Assembly: GCF_011617245.1 (NCBI RefSeq)
Contig: NZ_CP050152.1
Location: forward strand, 1,364,001 to 1,428,000
Origin: Brevibacterium atlanticum
GTDB lineage: Bacteria; Actinomycetota; Actinomycetes; Actinomycetales; Brevibacteriaceae
DNA length: 64,000 bases
Reading direction: 5' to 3'
Part shown: positions 6,892-16,460 of the stretch, piece by piece
Numbering within the stretch: the stretch's first letter is position 1
How the letters are laid out: each line of letters starts with the position of its first letter
Translations under genes and position numbers: made by a program
Notes under the pieces: generated by a model
The model's database searches: none
Seen by the model: only the letters and a program-made list of their open reading frames with translations
Told to the model about the DNA's origin: nothing

Positions 6892-6917
6892 AGCCCGTCC
6901 GGCCCTGCGACGGTGTG

Positions 6918-6940
6918 ATGCAACCCACATGCAACGTTGC
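6918..6940 (+). promoter_or_regulatory. Candidate operator upstream of aldehyde dehydrogenase
   Basis: A direct repeat ATGCAAC occurs at 6918-6924 and 6929-6935 (11-bp period, one helical turn). The second copy is part of the perfect 10-bp palindrome GCAACGTTGC at 6931-6940. It lies 65-87 bp before the dehydrogenase start, a typical activator site position. Binding by the adjacent GAF regulator is inference. Confidence 0.45.
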
Positions 6941-7004
6941 CCTCTGTAGCGTCGTGCTCACACGGAGATCATCCGGTGAAATCAGACGCATCAAAGGAGT
7001 TGCA

Positions 7005-8528
7005 ATGACTGTCTACGCACAGCCAGGTCAGGACGGATCGCTCGTCACCTTCAAGCCCCGCTACGAGAACTTCATCGGCGGTCAGTGGGTGCCCCCGGTC
7101 AATGGGAACTACTTCGAGAATCCCAGCCCGGTCACCGGTCAGGTGTTCACCGAAGTTCCGGCCAGCACTGCCGAGGACATCGAACTCGCCCTCGATGCGG
7201 CGCACAAAGCGGCTCCCGCCTGGGGGAAGACCTCGGTGGCCGAGCGCGCGAACATCCTCAACAAGATCGCCGATCGCATCGAGGAGAACCTCGAGATGAT
7301 CGCCGTCGCCGAGACCTGGGACAACGGGAAGGCGATCCGCGAGCCGCTCAATGCCGATCTGCCTCTGGCCGTCGATCACTTCCGCTACTTCGCCGGCGCC
7401 ATCCGTGCGCAGGAGGGCGGACTGTCACAGATCGACGAGGATACCGTGGCCTATCACTTCCACGAGCCCCTGGGTGTCGTCGGACAGATCATCCCGTGGA
7501 ACTTCCCGATCCTCATGGGCGTGTGGAAGATCGCCCCGGCGCTGGCTGCCGGCAATGCGATCGTCCTCAAACCTGCCGAGCAGACTCCGGCGTCGATCCT
7601 CGTCCTCGTCGAGCTCATCGCTGATCTGCTGCCCGAAGGCGTGCTCAACGTCGTCAACGGCTTCGGTCTCGAGGCCGGTAAGCCGCTGGCGTCGAACAAG
7701 CGGATCTCGAAGATCGCGTTCACGGGTGAGACGACCACGGGCCGTCTGATCATGCAGTACGCTTCCCAGAACATCATCCCGGTGACCCTCGAGCTGGGCG
7801 GCAAGTCCCCGAACATCTTCTTCGAGGACGTGCTCGATCAGGACGACGCATTCGCGGACAAGGCCCAGGAGGGCTTCACGATGTTCGCTCTCAACCAGGG
7901 AGAGGTCTGCACCTGCCCGTCCCGCGCACTCATCCAGGACTCGATCGCCGATCCCTTCCTTGAGAAGGTCGTGGCCAGGACGCAGAAGATCGTCCAGGGC
8001 AACCCGCTCGACACCGACACGATGATGGGAGCGCAGGCCTCGAACGACCAGTTCGAGAAGATCATGTCCTACCTCGACATCGGACGTCAGGAAGGCGCCG
8101 AGGTGCTCACCGGAGGTGCGAAGGCCGAACTCGACGGAGATCTGGCCGGGGGGTTCTACGTCCAGCCGACGATCTTCAAGGGCTCGAACACGATGCGCAT
8201 CTTCCAGGAGGAGATCTTCGGACCCGTGGTCTCGGTGGCGACATTCTCCGGCTACGACGATGCCCTGGCCACGGCCAATGACACGCTCTACGGCCTCGGT
8301 GCCGGTGTCTGGTCGCGCAACGGCAACACCGCGTACCGTGCCGGCCGGGACATCCAGGCGGGGCGTGTGTGGGTGAACAACTACCACGCCTACCCGGCCC
8401 ACGCGGCCTTCGGCGGATACAAAGCGTCGGGTATCGGACGTGAGAACCACCTGATGATGCTCGACCACTACCAGCAGACGAAGAACCTGCTCGTCAGCTA
8501 CTCCGACAACGCCCAGGGTTTCTTCTGA
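7005..8528 (+). CDS. NAD-dependent aldehyde dehydrogenase (acetaldehyde type)
   Basis: 507 residues from ATG 7005, chosen because AAAGGAG lies 7 nt upstream and [26 protein letters not shown] matches the family start; the frame extends upstream to 6915 without support. It oxidises an aldehyde to the acid with NAD. Conserved blocks: the nucleotide-binding and catalytic Asn region [20 protein letters not shown], the general-base Glu in LELGGKSPN, and the catalytic Cys302 in [11 protein letters not shown]. The double-cysteine CTCPSR form is typical of the ExaC/AldA acetaldehyde dehydrogenase group. Located between the GAF regulator and a zinc alcohol dehydrogenase, it likely completes ethanol-to-acetate oxidation. 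A palindrome copy follows 4 bp after the stop. Confidence 0.93.
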
Positions 8529-8532
8529 CCCA

Positions 8533-8591
8533 ATTGCTACCTGACGGCGGCCCAGCTACCTGGCGCCACGTTGCTGGGCCGCCGTCGGGTA
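8533..8591. repeat. Diverged copy 2 of the intergenic palindrome
   Basis: The outer arms TACCTGACGGCGGCCCAGC and GCTGGGCCGCCGTCGGGTA pair with one mismatch (a T-G wobble). The centre differs from copies 1 and 3: TGGCGCCA replaces CTCGCGCGAG, with further mismatches beside it. It sits between the aldehyde and alcohol dehydrogenase genes and could also act as a partial terminator. Confidence 0.82.
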
Positions 8592-8652
8592 TGTCGGCAA
8601 CATTCTCAAACCCCGACTGATCACGAAATCCACCATCGTCTCAAAGGAGCGA

Positions 8653-9675
8653 ATGATGTCAGGAATGAAAGCAGCAGTCGTCGAGGACTTCGGCAAGGAC
8701 CTCACCGTCGGAGACAACGCGATCCCGGAACCCGGTCCCGGTCAGGCCCTCGTCAAACTCATCGCCTCGGGAGTCTGTCACACCGATCTCCACGCCGCCC
8801 ACGGCGACTGGCCTGTCAAGCCGAAGATCCCACTCATCCCCGGACACGAAGGCGTCGGCACCGTAGAGAAAGTCGGTGAGGGCGTCACCGACGTCGAGGT
8901 CGGACAGCTCGTCGGGAATGCCTGGCTGTGGACGGCCTGCGGAACGTGCGAGCACTGCCGCCAGGGCTGGGAGACGCTGTGCGAACAGCAGGTCAACGGC
9001 GGCTATGGAGTCGACGGATCGTTCGGTGAGTACATGCTCGTCGATACGAAGTTCGCCGCCGTGATCCCCGAGGGTGCCGACCCCTACGAGATCGCCCCTG
9101 TGCTGTGTGCGGGAGTCACCGTGTACAAGGGACTCAAGCGCACCGAGGTCAAGCCCGGGCAGTGGGTCGTCATCTCCGGAATCGGCGGACTCGGCCATAT
9201 CGCGGTGCAGTACGCGGTGGCGATGGGTATGCGCGTTGTCGCGGTCGACGTCGCCGACGACAAGCTCGCCCTGGCGAAGAAGCACGGCGCGGAGATCACG
9301 GTCAACGCCTTCGCCGAGGACCCGGCCGAGATCATCCAGGAGAAGGTCGGCGGATCCCACGGCGTCCTCGTCACCGCTGTGCACCCGGCGGCGTTCGGGC
9401 AGGCGATCGGCATGACCCGCCGAGGCGGCACCATCGTCTTCAACGGACTGCCGCCCGGTGACTTCCCGGCTCCGATCTTCGACATCGTCCTCAAGGGACT
9501 GACGATTCGCGGCTCGATCGTCGGCACCCGCCAGGACATGGTCGAAGCGCTGGAGTTCTACGCCGCCGGCAAGATCCACCCGACGTTCTCGAAGCGTCCG
9601 CTAGAGGACATCAACGCGATCTTCGACGAGATGGAGCACGGTAAGATCGACGGCCGCGTCGTCATCGAATACTGA
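8653..9675 (+). CDS. adhP: Zinc-dependent alcohol dehydrogenase
   Basis: 340 residues. There are two in-frame ATGs at 8653 and 8656; AAAGGAG at 8643-8649 gives better spacing to the second, but the difference is one residue. A medium-chain dehydrogenase oxidising ethanol or other primary alcohols with NAD. The catalytic zinc ligands lie in GVCHTDLHAAHGDW and PGHEGVG, and the structural zinc Cys4 in CGTCEHCRQGWETLC. The Rossmann motif is GIGGLGHIAVQYA. Length and order match bacterial AdhP/AdhA. It lies 124 bp after the aldehyde dehydrogenase with its own ribosome-binding site, and palindrome copies lie on both sides. Confidence 0.94.
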   Translation: MMSGMKAAVVEDFGKDLTVGDNAIPEPGPGQALVKLIASGVCHTDLHAAHGDWPVKPKIPLIPGHEGVGTVEKVGEGVTDVEVGQLVGNAWLWTACGTCEHCRQGWETLCEQQVNGGYGVDGSFGEYMLVDTKFAAVIPEGADPYEIAPVLCAGVTVYKGLKRTEVKPGQWVVISGIGGLGHIAVQYAVAMGMRVVAVDVADDKLALAKKHGAEITVNAFAEDPAEIIQEKVGGSHGVLVTAVHPAAFGQAIGMTRRGGTIVFNGLPPGDFPAPIFDIVLKGLTIRGSIVGTRQDMVEALEFYAAGKIHPTFSKRPLEDINAIFDEMEHGKIDGRVVIEY

Positions 9676-11007: not shown

Positions 11008-11030
11008 AGGCAGCGGCCTGACCGCTGCCT
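11008..11030 (+). terminator. Short hairpin after rplL
   Basis: AGGCAGCGG (11008-11016) pairs with CCGCTGCCT (11022-11030) around a 5-nt loop, 6 bp after the rplL stop. It is followed 7 bp later by a second, stronger hairpin. Confidence 0.6.
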
Positions 11031-11037
11031 GAATCGA

Positions 11038-11068
11038 CGAACCCCGCAGCACAGTGCTGCGGGGTTCG
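11038..11068 (+). terminator. Strong hairpin terminator of the rplJL operon
   Basis: CGAACCCCGCAGCAC (11038-11052) is fully complementary to GTGCTGCGGGGTTCG (11054-11068); in the RNA the innermost pairs would open into a small loop. There is no long U tract. Confidence 0.8.
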
Positions 11069-11183
11069 TCGCATCTGATACGGAGGGCTCGACGCCGCCG
11101 CGTGCAGAGCCTCGGTGGGGATGTGGCAGGACGGCAACATGACCCGGTCCGCGCGTCGATCGGTCCTGCCCTATCCTTGAGGG

Positions 11184-12407
11184 GTGACTGAGACCACCGA
11201 GGCGGAGCTGCTGTCGACTCTGCGCGCGCGGATTCGAGATGCTTGGCAGGCCGATCCGGTATTCATCGACCCGATCATCGCTGCGGGACTGACCGACAAT
11301 CAGCGCACCGCGATCGAGAAGGCGTCGCAGACGACCGCGGAGACAGGTCTTTCGCACTTCGTGGCGATCGTTCCCGGCATCGCTCCCGCCGCCGAAGAGG
11401 ACTGGAGCCGTTTCACCTCGGATCTCGCCTATGCGATGCACAAGGACAGCGGGGAGGACCAGACCCTCGTCCTCATCAGCGAAGCCGAGAACGCCGCCCG
11501 CTCCTATGCGTACCTCGTCGGAGACAGCGGACCGGCGATGCCGAAGGCCGCCGACATGCTGGCCCGGTCAGGCAGCGACGACTTCCTGCCGGTCGAACTC
11601 GCCGTTCCGTATCAGCTCGGTGTCCTCGTCGCCGCCGCACGCTCGACGGATCCGCCCGCGCCGCCGGACTTCGACACCCGGGACGTCGGAGACCGCGACG
11701 AGGACTATATCGAAGCCACCGGGCTCGACAACGACAATCCTGACGGACTCGTGTTCGCAGCGACTGCCGCCGCGGCGCTGGGAGTCAGCGTCTGGCTGCT
11801 CCGACGCCGCACGAAGTACTCATGGCGGAAATCCCTGACGACGAGCCCGACCCTCGTCGGAGGCGGGTCGTTGGAGAGGAAGGCGCAGAAGGCGCTCGAA
11901 CCGCTGCCCGAACCCATCGATGACGAGTCCTGGGACGTCTACGACCGTGGTCGACGCGTCCAAGAAGCGCTGAGTACTCTGCTGACCGATCACCCCGATT
12001 GGGCTGAGGACCGGGACTTCTCCCATCGTCACGCCGTCAACGTCCTCGTCACCACCGCCCGCTGGGTGCGCGCACGACTGCACGGATCGGCCTCGGCAGA
12101 CCAGGAACCGCGCTTCTGCTTCCTCTTCCCGCACCACCGGACAGGCGTCGAGGAGTTCGTGCTGCGGCAACCGGGAACGACGCTGACCGTCGATCTCTGT
12201 GCGGACTGCCGGAACGAGATCGATGCCGGAGGCGAACCGGAACGGCTGATGGTGCCCAAGCGTCGCGGCTCGCGCAGACCTGTGCCGTACTTCCGGCGCT
12301 CCGACGCCTACGCTCAGTCCGGCTTCGGGAGCTTCCAACCTCTCGAGGACGCGCTGCTGGACAGCCGCACCAGCCCCGAGGCGACCTCCACGGGAGGTCG
12401 CCGATGA
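11184..12407 (+). CDS. Unknown membrane protein A of a three-gene paralogous operon (TPM-like N-terminal domain)
   Basis: 407 residues from GTG 11184. The N-terminal domain (about 1-165) carries ADPVFID (23-29) followed by a predicted alpha/beta stretch with FVAIVPG and TLVLISEAE. This arrangement resembles TPM-type domains and recurs in the next two genes. One transmembrane helix lies at about 189-207, followed by RRR, which suggests that the N-terminal domain is outside and the C-terminal part (about 210-407) inside. The C-terminal part has a putative metal site: Cys312 and His317/His318 in CFLFPHH, and Cys339-x2-Cys342 in LCADCR. The stop overlaps the next start by 4 bp (ATGA). Function unknown. 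Confidence 0.75.
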   Translation: MTETTEAELLSTLRARIRDAWQADPVFIDPIIAAGLTDNQRTAIEKASQTTAETGLSHFVAIVPGIAPAAEEDWSRFTSDLAYAMHKDSGEDQTLVLISEAENAARSYAYLVGDSGPAMPKAADMLARSGSDDFLPVELAVPYQLGVLVAAARSTDPPAPPDFDTRDVGDRDEDYIEATGLDNDNPDGLVFAATAAAALGVSVWLLRRRTKYSWRKSLTTSPTLVGGGSLERKAQKALEPLPEPIDDESWDVYDRGRRVQEALSTLLTDHPDWAEDRDFSHRHAVNVLVTTARWVRARLHGSASADQEPRFCFLFPHHRTGVEEFVLRQPGTTLTVDLCADCRNEIDAGGEPERLMVPKRRGSRRPVPYFRRSDAYAQSGFGSFQPLEDALLDSRTSPEATSTGGRR

Positions 12408-13201
12408 CTGCACAGGGACCCTCGAGGCTGAAGTGGATCGCGGCGATCATCATCGTCGGAGTGATGGCCGTGGGCGCGGCGCTGCTGAGTGCCAACCGGT
12501 TCGATGCCGCGAGAGCCGAACGGATTGCCGCCGAGGAGAGCGACGAGATCGTCGTCGACTCGATCTACTCTGACCGGATCGAGGGCCAGTACGATCCCGA
12601 CTACGACCGGACCCGCTACCAGGACATCGCCCGCTCCTTCGCCGATGATCCCATCCACATCGACGAGTACCGCGCCTTCGACGTCGACGACGCGAGTCTT
12701 GACGCGGTCCGCGAGACAGTGGACGACCTCGACGTGCCGATCTACGTGGCGATACTGTCGGACTCCGACCTCGACGACGCCGACGGAGAGACCGACCTGC
12801 TGGCGGCGAGGATCGCCAGAGAGCTGCCCGACGAGGCGGCCACCGTCCTCGTCGTCGGTGAGGTCTCCGAGGGCATCGGTGACCGTGGAGCGGTCCGCCG
12901 CCTCACCGACATGCCCGAAACCGACGCCGACGACGACGCATCCGAGACCGCGCTGCGTTATGCGCAGGCTCTCACCGCCGTCGACGTCGAGGATCCGGCG
13001 GAAAGCTATTCGCGCACGATCGACGACGATGGTCAGCCGGTCATCGTCAACGAGGACACCGCTCGGGATCCACGGGAGCTCGCCTACCCGATCGGCGGGG
13101 CCGTGACCGGAGCGATCTTCGGTGTCATCATCGGCGGCGGCCTCGGCGTCGGGGGAGTGCTCGTCATCAGACAGCTGCGGAAGAGGAACGGACACAGATG
13201 A
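12404..13201 (+). CDS. Unknown membrane protein B of the three-gene paralogous operon
   Basis: 265 residues, translationally coupled at both ends by ATGA overlaps. A transmembrane helix lies near the N-terminus (about 7-26) and a second, Gly-rich one near the C-terminus (about 228-255), followed by RQLRKRNGHR. The central domain is therefore probably extracytoplasmic. It is highly acidic and contains ADDPIHID (80-87) and a VPIYVAIL strand plus AATVLVVG, aligning with the N-terminal domains of the neighbouring proteins A and C. It lacks the Cys/His C-terminal module they have. The fold is inferred to be TPM-like; no catalytic residues can be named. It may be the membrane partner that pairs with A and C. 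Confidence 0.75.
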   Translation: MTAQGPSRLKWIAAIIIVGVMAVGAALLSANRFDAARAERIAAEESDEIVVDSIYSDRIEGQYDPDYDRTRYQDIARSFADDPIHIDEYRAFDVDDASLDAVRETVDDLDVPIYVAILSDSDLDDADGETDLLAARIARELPDEAATVLVVGEVSEGIGDRGAVRRLTDMPETDADDDASETALRYAQALTAVDVEDPAESYSRTIDDDGQPVIVNEDTARDPRELAYPIGGAVTGAIFGVIIGGGLGVGGVLVIRQLRKRNGHR

Positions 13202-14400
13202 GTGCAGATGCCCAGCAGATCGCCGAGGCGCTCGAGGACGATCCCTTCCACATCGATTCGTCTGTCGCCGGCTCCCTCAATGCCGAACTGCTCGATCAGG
13301 CCCGGCAGACAACTCAGGGGCTCGACTTCGAGGTCTTCGTCATCGCCGTCGACGAGGATTCCCTCGATGCGGATCTGCTCGAGCAGATCAAGGTCCTCCA
13401 CGGCGGAGACGGTGCGTTCATCATGATCAACGGCGATTCGGAGATCGCTGTGGATGTGCGCTTCGAATCCGATCATGATCAGTACGTGCAGGTGACGGAT
13501 CAGCTCTCGATCGCCCGCGAGTCGTGGAACGTCAGCACACCCTCGGTGACGAAGCTCAACACCCTCCTCGATCTCTATGCCCACCCGCAGGCCCGCACCG
13601 AGGCGGAGTCCTCGACCGGGCAGGAGGCGCCCGGCAGCGAGGTCGCGACCGTGGACGGATCGAACTCCTTCCCGACGCTCTTCCTCGGCGGCGCGATCCT
13701 CGTGCTCGCGCTCGTCATCGGTGCCGTGTGGCTGACGAGGAGTCGTCGGCAGCGCGCTGCGGCCCTGCGGACCAGGAGGCAGTTCGAACTCCCTGCTCGA
13801 CTGCTCGATCGGGTCGACACACTGCAGAGGACGTCCTTGCGCGAGTCGATCAGCTCCGAGACCACGGAGCTCGCCGCACGGATCGAGAGTCTGCAGACGC
13901 AGAACCTCGGGCCAGATGACGCGGGACGGGTCGAGCGCAGCCTCGACGCCTACGCGATCGCCCGTCGCATCGTCGACGACGAGGACTCCGAACGCATCGA
14001 CCTCGCCGGAGCGATGGTACTGCTGCGTGAGGCAGGACGTGAGATCGCCGAGGTGAGTCTGCACAGGCGCAGTCGGCGCGGAACCCGGGCGGCGGAGTCG
14101 TCCCGCTCCACCGGTGCCCTGCCGCAGAGCCTCTGCACGGTCAACCCGCTCCACGGCGAAGCGACCTCGCTGCAGCAGGTGATCACCTCGGCGGCGGAGA
14201 GCGGGAAACGGCGCAGCGTTCGTGTGCCCGTATGCGCGGACTGCCGAGACGATCTCGCCGACGGCCGCACGCTGCAATGGATCTACGACGGCGATCGCCC
14301 CTACGTCGACGTCGACAGCGTCTGGTCGCAGACCCTCTTCGGTGCGATCGGTCGAGATCTCGTCACCGCCCTGCACAAGAACGCCGACGATCCGAGCTGA
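13198..14400 (+). CDS. Unknown membrane protein C of the three-gene paralogous operon (TPM-like, Cys/His C-terminus)
   Basis: 400 residues, start overlapping the previous stop by 4 bp. The N-terminal domain has EDDPFHID (13-20) and the FEVFVIAV strand, homologous in layout to proteins A and B. One transmembrane helix lies at about 161-180 followed by RSRRQR. A long, charged, helix-rich region (about 190-300, possibly coiled coil) leads to a C-terminal module with Cys313 and His319 in LCTVNPLHGEA and Cys346-x2-Cys349 in VCADCRDDL. These four residues match the spacing in protein A and suggest a small zinc site. Domain order is the same as in A, so A and C are likely ancient duplicates. Function unknown. 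Confidence 0.75.
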   Translation: MSADAQQIAEALEDDPFHIDSSVAGSLNAELLDQARQTTQGLDFEVFVIAVDEDSLDADLLEQIKVLHGGDGAFIMINGDSEIAVDVRFESDHDQYVQVTDQLSIARESWNVSTPSVTKLNTLLDLYAHPQARTEAESSTGQEAPGSEVATVDGSNSFPTLFLGGAILVLALVIGAVWLTRSRRQRAAALRTRRQFELPARLLDRVDTLQRTSLRESISSETTELAARIESLQTQNLGPDDAGRVERSLDAYAIARRIVDDEDSERIDLAGAMVLLREAGREIAEVSLHRRSRRGTRAAESSRSTGALPQSLCTVNPLHGEATSLQQVITSAAESGKRRSVRVPVCADCRDDLADGRTLQWIYDGDRPYVDVDSVWSQTLFGAIGRDLVTALHKNADDPS

Positions 14401-14479: not shown

Positions 14480-15292
14480 TCAGAACAGCCGGACCTCGCG
14501 CGGGATGCTCCGATCAGGCGAACCCGGCACCGCACGCGTCGGCAGCGCGACGTCGCCCTCGTCCTGCCGCATACGGAGCCCATCGATGTCCTCGAGCTGG
14601 CGGCGGACGAACGCGCGGTCGACCGGAACTCCGTGCCCGGGTACGAAGACCTCCGCCTCGGTGAAGGACAGGAGTGTGCGGAGACTGTCGGCCCAATGGC
14701 TCAGTGCGGCGTCGGGCCCGGCCTGCGGAGGAGCGCCCTCTTCGATGAGGTCTCCGGCGAAGACGATGCCCGCCTCAGGGAGCCGAACGACGAGATCGGC
14801 CGTGGAGTGACCTCCGAGCACGTGGAACTCCACAGCACAGTCGCCGAGGTCGAGGCTGCCGACGTCTCCCGGTGTCTCGTCGACAGGGGAGACAGGGACG
14901 ACGAGGGCGCCCGGATCCTCGGGCAGCTGGGCGAGCCACCGGGCCGAGGCCCCATCGCCGAGGTCCTCACCGCTGCGCACCTCGTCGAGAGCGATCCATG
15001 CCGTCGCCTCCTGGTCGGCGGAGAAGGACGACGAGGCATGCACAGTCTCAACTCCGGCGGCGAGCAGGGCTGCGGCACCGAAGAAATGGTCCCAATGATC
15101 ATGGGTGAGAACCAGGTCGACGGGCGGCACGATTCCGTGCTCATGCTCGCTGAGTGCGGCGACTCGGTCGATGAGATGGCGGGCCGCGGCAGGCCCGGGG
15201 CCGGCGTCGACGATGAGGCAGCGCTCCTCGCCGATGACGAGCCCGCAGCTGACCCCGGCCGGATCGAGACTGATGACATGCACACTGACCAT
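14480..15292 (-). CDS. Metallo-beta-lactamase-fold hydrolase
   Basis: 270 residues from ATG at 15292. The metal-binding signature THDHWDH (H-x-H-x-D-H) occurs after the VDLVLTHD strand, with further conserved features LGGHSTADLVV, the bridging Asp in FAGDLIEEG and a late His in VPGHG. This is the glyoxalase-II/MBL superfamily, covering thioesterases, lactonases and phosphodiesterases; the substrate cannot be assigned. The N-terminus MVSVHVISLDPAGVSCGLV is a normal first strand with no signal peptide, so it is cytoplasmic. It is divergently transcribed from the GNAT gene with 73 bp between starts, and its 3' end converges on the paralogous membrane operon. Confidence 0.88.
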   Translation of the reverse strand: MVSVHVISLDPAGVSCGLVIGEERCLIVDAGPGPAAARHLIDRVAALSEHEHGIVPPVDLVLTHDHWDHFFGAAALLAAGVETVHASSSFSADQEATAWIALDEVRSGEDLGDGASARWLAQLPEDPGALVVPVSPVDETPGDVGSLDLGDCAVEFHVLGGHSTADLVVRLPEAGIVFAGDLIEEGAPPQAGPDAALSHWADSLRTLLSFTEAEVFVPGHGVPVDRAFVRRQLEDIDGLRMRQDEGDVALPTRAVPGSPDRSIPREVRLF

Positions 15293-15365
15293 GGTCGAAG
15301 TCTAGAATGGCGACAGGCGGCCAATCCACCGATGAGCCTGCCGACGGCGACGATGGAGTGCACAG

Positions 15366-16460
15366 ATGGACATCACGAGGATCCGACCCGGGGACCACGA
15401 CGGGGCTGCGATCGAGGCCGTCCTGCCCGAAATCCTCGCCTTCGACACACAGATCAATCATGCTTCGGGACTCGGGGAGGATTTCGATCCGCGGGAAGCC
15501 GAACTGCGCCGTGAGCTGAGTTCGTCGACCGCCTATGAGACTCACACGACGTGGATCGTCCGACTCGGTGGGTCCATAGTGGCCAAAGGCGTGGCATTTC
15601 TGCCTCTGTCCGACAACCGTGACACCGCAGAGCTGTGGTGCGCGGTCCACCCTGCCCACCGAGGTCAGGGGATCGGCGGGCGGCTGCTCACCGTCATGGA
15701 AGAGGAGATGCGGATCGACGGACGCACTCGCTTGACGAGCTATTGCGAGCTTCCGGCGACGGTGCGCGACGCCGCACCTGGACGGGCCCATCTGGCAGCC
15801 CAGATCGGGAAGGGATCCTTGCCGAGCGGACAGCCCGACGTCGCTTTCCTCCACCGGCACGGCTATTCGTTCATCCAACTCGAACGCTGCTCGGTCGCAG
15901 CTGCCGGGGGGGCGGAAGAGCTCAGCGGAGATCCGATCGGCGATGAGGCGGCCGACGGCTACGTCATCGAGACCTGGCAGGGTCCGACGCCCGAACATCG
16001 CCTCGACCAGGTCGCTCTGCTGCACCAGCGGATGTCGACGGATGTGCCGGGAGCCGCGGAGTTCGGCGACGAGGAGGTCTGGGACGCCGATCGGGTCAGA
16101 ACCCTGGACGCAGAACGGACGGCCAGCGCCGAGGTGCTCACCACGTCTCTGGCTCTGCTCGGGCAGACTGCGGCCGGATTCACCGAGGTCGCGCACTCGG
16201 CAGACCGACCGCAGGTCGGTTGGCAGGGGTCGACCATCGTCGCCCGCGAGCACCGAGGGCACCGCCTCGGCGCGCGATTGAAGTTCGCGACCCTCGTCGC
16301 GCTGGGTCGGGAGTCGTCGGTCGAGAGGATCTACACGTGGAATGCGGTCGAGAATTCGTGGATGCTCGCGATCAACGACGCTGTGGGGTTCGAGACCTGG
16401 GCGTGGGTAGGAGTGTGGAGGAAGGTGCTCGAGGCGCCGGGCACGGACGACGGGGCGTGA
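15366..16460 (+). CDS. Two-domain GNAT N-acetyltransferase
   Basis: 364 residues. Two acetyl-CoA-binding cores are visible. The N-terminal one (about 1-175) has AELWCAVHPAHRGQGIGGRL, a full R-G-Q-G-I-G pyrophosphate loop. The C-terminal one (about 190-360) has STIVAREHRGHRLGARLKF and ends in the N-x-x-M/L-x-x-x-N stretch WNAVENSWMLAINDAVGFE. Tandem GNAT proteins of this type acetylate small molecules or antibiotic-like amines, the mycothiol synthase fold being one relative. This gene lacks clear mycothiol synthase features, so the substrate is left open. It is divergent from the MBL hydrolase. The gap to rpoB is 254 bp and contains the rpoB promoter. Confidence 0.85.
   Translation: MDITRIRPGDHDGAAIEAVLPEILAFDTQINHASGLGEDFDPREAELRRELSSSTAYETHTTWIVRLGGSIVAKGVAFLPLSDNRDTAELWCAVHPAHRGQGIGGRLLTVMEEEMRIDGRTRLTSYCELPATVRDAAPGRAHLAAQIGKGSLPSGQPDVAFLHRHGYSFIQLERCSVAAAGGAEELSGDPIGDEAADGYVIETWQGPTPEHRLDQVALLHQRMSTDVPGAAEFGDEEVWDADRVRTLDAERTASAEVLTTSLALLGQTAAGFTEVAHSADRPQVGWQGSTIVAREHRGHRLGARLKFATLVALGRESSVERIYTWNAVENSWMLAINDAVGFETWAWVGVWRKVLEAPGTDDGA

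Follow-up and report, generated by a model that had tools for sequence, protein, structure and literature searches.

In the window analysed here, a stretch of 64,000 nucleotides from Brevibacterium atlanticum (contig NZ_CP050152.1, positions 1,364,001 to 1,428,000), three overlapping genes for predicted membrane proteins, which we call A, B and C, lie between rplL and rpoB. They form a real and conserved trio that has been missed by the libraries searched and that is, by prediction, a variant of the TPM kind. Judged by their profiles, the three proteins carry one module in diverged form; A and C are paralogues over their full length, and B shares the module only. The arrangement of the genes makes it likely that the proteins form one complex, and we tentatively propose, as something a little short of an even guess, that this is a hetero-oligomeric membrane complex with a chaperone-like part in assembly or repair, tied to the phage shock protein (PSP) network.

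Three linked genes and one shared module

Gene A (11184-12407, 407 aa) has a GTG start in the list of open reading frames (ORFs), and is followed by gene B (12404-13201, 265 aa) and gene C (13198-14400, 400 aa), all on the forward strand, as are the other features of the window given below unless another strand is named. B is joined at both ends by ATGA overlaps, with A at 12404-12407 and with C at 13198-13201. The original prediction, made from the letters alone, had described ATGA-linked reading frames between rplL and rpoB, and both coordinates and overlaps were confirmed exactly; the location also holds, with the correction that genes for a metallo-beta-lactamase-fold (MBL-fold) protein and a GNAT protein intervene before rpoB. 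Searches gave 41 matches for A, 36 for B and 80 for C, each number including the query itself, and those of C extended to Kribbella. A, B and C have no family match worth keeping in Pfam and NCBIfam, where rows for Orthopox_A43R, PEX-1N, MurT_C and sortase domains were far below the cut-offs and were rejected, and a sequence search of PDB found no relative; we put its low-scoring rows (dynein light chain, CD4, amyloid precursor) down to chance or to the composition of transmembrane segments. Plasmids searched with C yielded no match, and a search of the literature for Kribbella TPM domain-containing proteins or Brevibacterium rplL/rpoB membrane proteins found nothing.

The module covers residues 5-161 of A (11196-11666) and 1-133 of C (13198-13596), where it is TPM-like, and residues 60-160 of B (12581-12883), where it was delimited by hhalign to C and to A. 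Its signature reads ADPVFID in A (residues 23-29), DDPIHID in B (81-87) and DDPFHID in C (14-20), and the strands after it are HFVAIV, IYVAIL and VFVIAV, respectively. A V/F-x-V-A-I strand behind the signature had been expected in every copy; the signature is indeed present in all three and the strand in A and B, but C reads VIAV. The domain orders were as predicted, with module, helix and inner part in A and C, and helix, module and helix in B.

Among the window proteins BLAST connects B with C (E 3e-8), and A with C and A with B weakly. When family profiles were compared by hhalign, whole A aligned with whole C at an E value of 5e-31 over 375 columns, C with B at 6e-17 over 87 columns and A with B at 1e-12 over 82 columns. 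Profiles of the modules alone scored 86.6 for C-A, 97.1 for C-B and 73.2 for A-B, the maxima of 60 column shuffles per pair being 23.8, 22.3 and 19.8, and each module model finds the other two within the window proteins at a domain E value of 2e-3 or better. The inner halves of A and C scored 113.8, with 59 of 60 controls at 18.6 or lower; the last control reached 129.0 through seven columns at the end of the profile, and we regard this as a program artefact (1 of 240 shuffles). Beyond the DPxxID turn, few conserved residues are common to all three modules. The earlier view of three paralogues related through one module is thus borne out as far as the module goes, but it missed that the paralogy of A and C extends to their inner half. 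Five membrane-protein neighbours of the trios in two other Brevibacterium genomes (G014 and G005) were tried as further copies of the module and rejected, the best domain E value being 0.024.

The predicted TPM fold

The modules of A and C are predicted to have a TPM fold. The assignment rests on a second look with VIA-align at AlphaFold models of A and C, in which the modules group with TPM folds (TLP18.3, Psb32 and cg2496) and TPM structures occupy the top rows for both; the two modules match the same TPM structures, and no failure of these two to superpose has been seen so far. Matches of the inner helices to DnaK, a uranyl-binding protein and SCIN were taken as common helical arrangements. 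Against a profile of canonical actinobacterial TPM sequences (29 of 30, one wrong-frame sequence being left out) C scores 28.3 and A 30.7, above all 60 shuffles each (maxima 15.8 and 18.0), at hhalign probabilities of just 40% and 54%. The assignment of B to the TPM kind leans on its clear similarity to C. The divergent TPM module that had been predicted for the whole trio is accordingly backed for A and C, and less so for B, whose own profile link to canonical TPM is weak (score 18.9, shuffle maximum 23.9 with 1 of 60 controls higher, probability 3%). That weak link counts against the assignment, as do the results of Foldseek alone, where E values were 0.14 or worse, no TPM structure fell below 0.1 for A or C, and chain J of 6adq was the sole TPM structure among the 50 matches listed for C.

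For PF04536, the Pfam family of canonical TPM domains, neither A, B and C nor the rest of the window genome gave a match. It is not among the families listed for 13 members of the C family, and 38 members of the A family do not match it at E 0.01 or less. It is found in 0/25 Brevibacterium genomes and gave no match in the Nocardiopsis genome, and it is present in 4/4 Kribbella genomes tested and in 60/98 genomes of the class.

Conservation and gene fusion

The scan of genome contigs gave 45 loci, 24 from Brevibacterium, 20 of Kribbella type (one of which carries the label Streptomyces sp. SID13031) and one from Nocardiopsis. The order rplL-A-B-C-MBL holds in 24/24 Brevibacterium loci, and rpoB comes next in 23 of them, the contig ending in the remaining one. 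With a start yielding a 4-nt overlap preferred wherever there is one, such an overlap joins A to B in 23/24 and B to C in 20/24 of these loci. Frames are broken in L030 (A) and in L038 (A and C); the latter locus is from Brevibacterium iodinum ATCC 49514, and its broken genes are pseudogenes or assembly errors. All 20 Kribbella-type loci have A, B and C in the same order, and the chosen starts give 4-nt overlaps in 15/20 for A/B and 16/20 for B/C, with a frame problem in A of L059. The neighbourhoods differ between the two groups of loci: the Kribbella trio has an acyl-CoA dehydrogenase gene before it and a Toastrack-like gene after it in 20/20 loci, the latter on the strand of C in 18 of them (Pfam DUF4097 was checked in L053, and the remaining loci were called by similarity). 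The trio is thus kept in two genera of different orders and is not a Brevibacterium oddity. Homologues do recur as a trio, in Kribbella, although Nocardiopsis (L070) has a single-gene relative of the A/C type; in other families of the same order the trio family was found in 0/14 sampled genomes.

Divergent Brevibacterium genomes (G016, G014, G003 and G005) have one ORF in which the A inner domain is followed by the B module, with C as the next gene; for both parts the domain E value was under 1e-3, seven sequences being searched. A 774-residue ORF of G002 has the A part and then further helices, and no B module was detected behind them. The seven ORFs examined all end in ATGA or GTGA. The start codon within these four letters shares the frame of C in six cases; the exception is G003, whose C begins 7 nt past the stop of the fused ORF. 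G002 has also a second copy of 601 aa upstream of rplJ (L074 16017-17822), with A followed by two helices and no detectable B module. The 328-aa B-family protein P0151 begins with a segment that resembles an in-frame end of A, and A and B may be fused there too.

Gene fusion is classical, indirect evidence that two proteins sit together, here A and B. Because overlaps and order are conserved and A-B fusions occur, one complex of A, B and C is likely. The original prediction had gone further, with a hetero-oligomeric envelope complex made in fixed ratio; the order, overlaps and fusions favour it indirectly, and both the fixed ratio and the membrane complex are things that we infer and do not observe.

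Predicted membrane topology

Protein A has a predicted transmembrane helix at residues 188-206 (11745-11801), called from hydropathy and charges, with acidic residues before it and RRRTK after it, and C has one at residues 158-180 (13669-13737; hydropathy 2.66) with the same bias, acidic ahead of the helix and basic behind. B has a predicted N-terminal helix at residues 12-30 (12437-12493; hydropathy 2.59) and a predicted C-terminal one (13088-13165) with a glycine zipper, G236-x3-G240-x3-G244, in which G240 and G244 are invariant and G236 is conserved to at least 90% in 34 sequences. Strong N-terminal hydrophobic segments, resembling signal peptides, are present in 15/15 aligned Kribbella-type A and in 22/24 non-Brevibacterium C proteins, and a short or late start seems to explain the two C proteins without them (P0069 and P0073). 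On account of the charge bias and the Kribbella N-termini, the modules of A and C are placed outside; we predict that the modules lie outside the membrane and that the inner domains are cytoplasmic. This placement is put in some doubt by the aligned Brevibacterium proteins, where a strong N-terminal segment is present in 0/23 A and 0/22 C, and export of an N-tail of 155-187 residues without signal peptide has to be assumed. Certain divergent Brevibacterium copies, such as C of G003, do have the strong segment.

The inner domain and its free copy at the psp locus

The inner half of A and C is a helical domain that ends in C-x5-H...C-x2-C. In C the helical bundle spans residues 200-294 (13795-14079), with helices at 200-231, 239-260 and 266-294 in the predicted model. 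The motif is formed by C312, H318, C339 and C342 in A (12117-12209), each present in 38/38 aligned sequences, and by C313, H319, C346 and C349 in C (14134-14244), each in 46/46. Since the four Cys/His positions are invariant it is probably a zinc site, and A and C both have the four conserved Cys/His ligands in two pairs that are typical of zinc-ribbon-like domains.

Searching with the A profile, we found a free inner-domain protein of about 280 residues, without the module, in 25/25 Brevibacterium genomes, and a comparison of coordinates places its gene within 2 kb of PspAB and on the opposite strand in every one of them. In the window genome it lies on the minus strand (G000:C1:3392540-3393373; L141 6541-7374), and the locus has pspA, an M48 peptidase gene and PspAB (PF22742, E 4e-64), and then the free inner-domain gene on the other strand. 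The protein consists of a helix, a helical part, C-x5-H...C-x2-D, with D instead of C at the final ligand position, and a Gly-rich tail, and the one orthologue scanned (from G022) has no above-cut-off Pfam or NCBIfam match. By profile similarity, then, a protein of the psp locus is a paralogue of the inner domain that A and C share; both the putative zinc domain and its free copy had been overlooked when the trio was first described. A system of PspA, a metallopeptidase and PspAB is known, and the available part of its description does not mention the free inner-domain protein (PMC11237479).

Proposed function and alternatives

TPM domains have been proposed, in the parts of the two papers at hand, to aid the assembly of membrane-linked complexes and not to be phosphatases (PMC11237479, PMC12419801), and a role in photosystem II repair is given for TLP18.3 in an excerpt of a third (PMC13089150). 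Because of this literature, the Toastrack-like neighbour and the psp-locus paralogue we favour, with limited confidence, a chaperone-like role in envelope stress. Outside the membrane the modules of A, B and C would serve assembly or repair in the manner of a chaperone, A and C would flank B, whose glycine-zipper helix would pack in the membrane, and the paired and probably zinc-binding inner domains of A and C would act inside; the complex would in this way guard or assemble membrane proteins under stress. A bolder version, which we regard as doubtful, is a hetero-trimeric transmembrane chaperone of the actinobacterial envelope. Its three TPM modules would together form a platform on the outside to which membrane proteins are bound while damaged or nascent, and the paired zinc domains of A and C would dock inside with the partner that the free inner-domain protein of the pspA-pspAB locus also uses; in Brevibacterium, where canonical TPM proteins are lacking, the membrane-repair response would then run through the trio.

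Several observations speak against a role of this kind. The CxxC pair is absent from the fused A of G003, G002 and G005, and zinc in A is hence not indispensable; C of G003 retains all four ligand-like residues. The trio of the window is distant from pspA (G000:C1:3389382) and has no adjoining PSP partner, and in the Kribbella genome G134 the free inner-domain genes do not adjoin pspA. The C profile found C in 19 of the 25 Brevibacterium genomes and did not find it in the other six (G004, G007, G009, G017, G018 and G022), where G017 is 86% complete and the match in G018 is the free inner-domain gene. In G007 a broken piece of A (residues 2-185, containing a stop) survives between rplL and MBL (L142 7373-7918) as the footprint of a trio deletion, and in G022 rplL, MBL, GNAT and rpoB all keep their positions and the trio is absent. 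With no C found in six genomes, the trio is dispensable and not essential.

The main rival explanation is a transmembrane sensor of envelope stress, whose outer modules would respond to damage or to a ligand and whose zinc domains would pass this on to a regulator or the PSP machinery, without any chaperoning. A and C have an outside module, a single helix and an inside domain, the latter paralogous to a psp-locus protein, and the Toastrack domain, of which a similar gene is the neighbour in Kribbella, has been proposed as a signalling platform in the part of the paper that we draw on (PMC11237479). No kinase, sigma-factor or DNA-binding family is however found in A, B, C or the four flanking window genes scanned, and we consider a sensor rather unlikely. 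Improbable, too, is that the trio is dedicated to a single respiratory complex as an accessory or assembly factor. It would then resemble the TPM-like chain found in the mycobacterial bcc-aa3 supercomplex, a chain that we take to be the factor named PRSAF1, or, for photosystem II, Psb32/TLP18.3. Structure rows of the supercomplex chain rank under most canonical TPM structures and close to where common arrangements fall. In the window, no gene for a respiratory complex was recognised beside the trio (the Kribbella neighbours being annotated in part), and related genomes in which respiration should be alike lack the trio. PRSAF, LpqE and TPM are not mentioned in PMC8361435.

That the modules are secreted acid phosphatases would agree with the TPM fold predicted for A and C and with the activity reported for TLP18.3 (cited in the excerpt of PMC13089150), but this activity is disputed, as far as the part of PMC12419801 at hand goes, A, B and C have no match to PF04536, and the scarcity of common residues outside the DPxxID turn also argues against it, which leaves phosphatases as the least probable explanation. 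The three paralogues might also work independently in one operon without a common complex. The single-gene relative in Nocardiopsis speaks for this, but the order and the overlaps are conserved in two genera that belong to different orders, fusions of A with B occur, and the architectures are different and non-interchangeable, so independent work seems to us quite unlikely.

Predicted promoter and neighbouring genes

Between the end of rplL (11001) and A there is a 15-base inverted repeat, found by eye (11038-11068), that would form a terminator-like hairpin without a T run; the stretch 11020-11085 folds at -39.5 kcal/mol, where shuffled sequences average -19.2 (z -7.1). A terminator scan, which demands a T run, listed none at this hairpin. 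The -10-like hexamer TATCCT (11172-11177) stands 6 nt before the GTG start of A and is, from the conservation of TANNNT, a predicted leaderless promoter. The comparison covered 24 sequences from Brevibacterium, some of them nearly identical: that of the window and those of 23 named loci, L030 of the 24 being excluded for its broken A frame. The spacing of TANNNT to the start of A is 6 nt in 20 and 7 nt in 3 of them, L046 being the exception, no further spacing between 0 and 59 nt is seen in as many as 4, and an SD-like (Shine-Dalgarno-like) motif 5-16 nt upstream of the start is found in none. From the conserved spacing and the lack of an SD-like motif we predict that the transcript of A starts at A and is leaderless, rather than a simple read-through from rplL. 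A consensus promoter scan listed no site on the plus strand before A.

Behind C come the MBL-fold gene, on the minus strand, the GNAT gene and then rpoB. The MBL-fold and GNAT genes (14480-16460) stay between rplL and rpoB even without the trio (L143). Aldehyde and alcohol dehydrogenase genes (6915-9675) lie upstream of rplJ, and each is present in 21/24 Brevibacterium loci at an identity of at least 85%, some contigs being cut.

Comparison with known systems

TPM proteins are widespread, and it is disputed whether they act as phosphatases or as assembly chaperones. Three non-interchangeable TPM-like subunits, together with natural A-B fusions and losses within one genus, make the assembly-factor view directly testable, and the shared inner domain, a family without Pfam or NCBIfam match that lies beside pspAB in all Brevibacterium genomes searched, is a candidate component of the actinobacterial envelope-stress response.

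The canonical actinobacterial TPM proteins (PF04536), with signal peptide, TPM domain, helix and long coiled coil, share with the trio the predicted fold of the outer module and, in most loci read, the plan of an external module, one helix and a helical inner part. They differ in that PF04536 does not recognise the trio modules, in that the trio has three co-encoded copies, and in that 18 canonical loci, as far as they could be read, did not show the inner C-x5-H/C-x2-C. Many of these loci are cut at the locus end, L080 is apparently in the wrong frame, and the sole match to the pattern, in L081, precedes the module. TLP18.3 and Psb32, at 8-15% identity, are single proteins of photosynthetic membranes with a part in photosystem II repair or assembly, and to our knowledge they have no inner zinc domain. 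The TPM-like chain of the mycobacterial CIII2CIV2 (6adq_J, 8hcr_J, 6hwh_O and 8ovc_a) is a solved subunit of a respiratory complex, whereas no link to respiration was found for the trio. In Bacillus subtilis the set ydjFGHL, as given in the available part of PMC11237479, encodes PspA, the zinc-ribbon protein YdjG and the TPM protein YdjH, and like the trio it combines TPM and zinc-ribbon-like domains; ydjFGHL is itself a membrane system linked to PspA, whereas the trio holds module and putative zinc domain in one chain, as a set of paralogues, and away from pspA.

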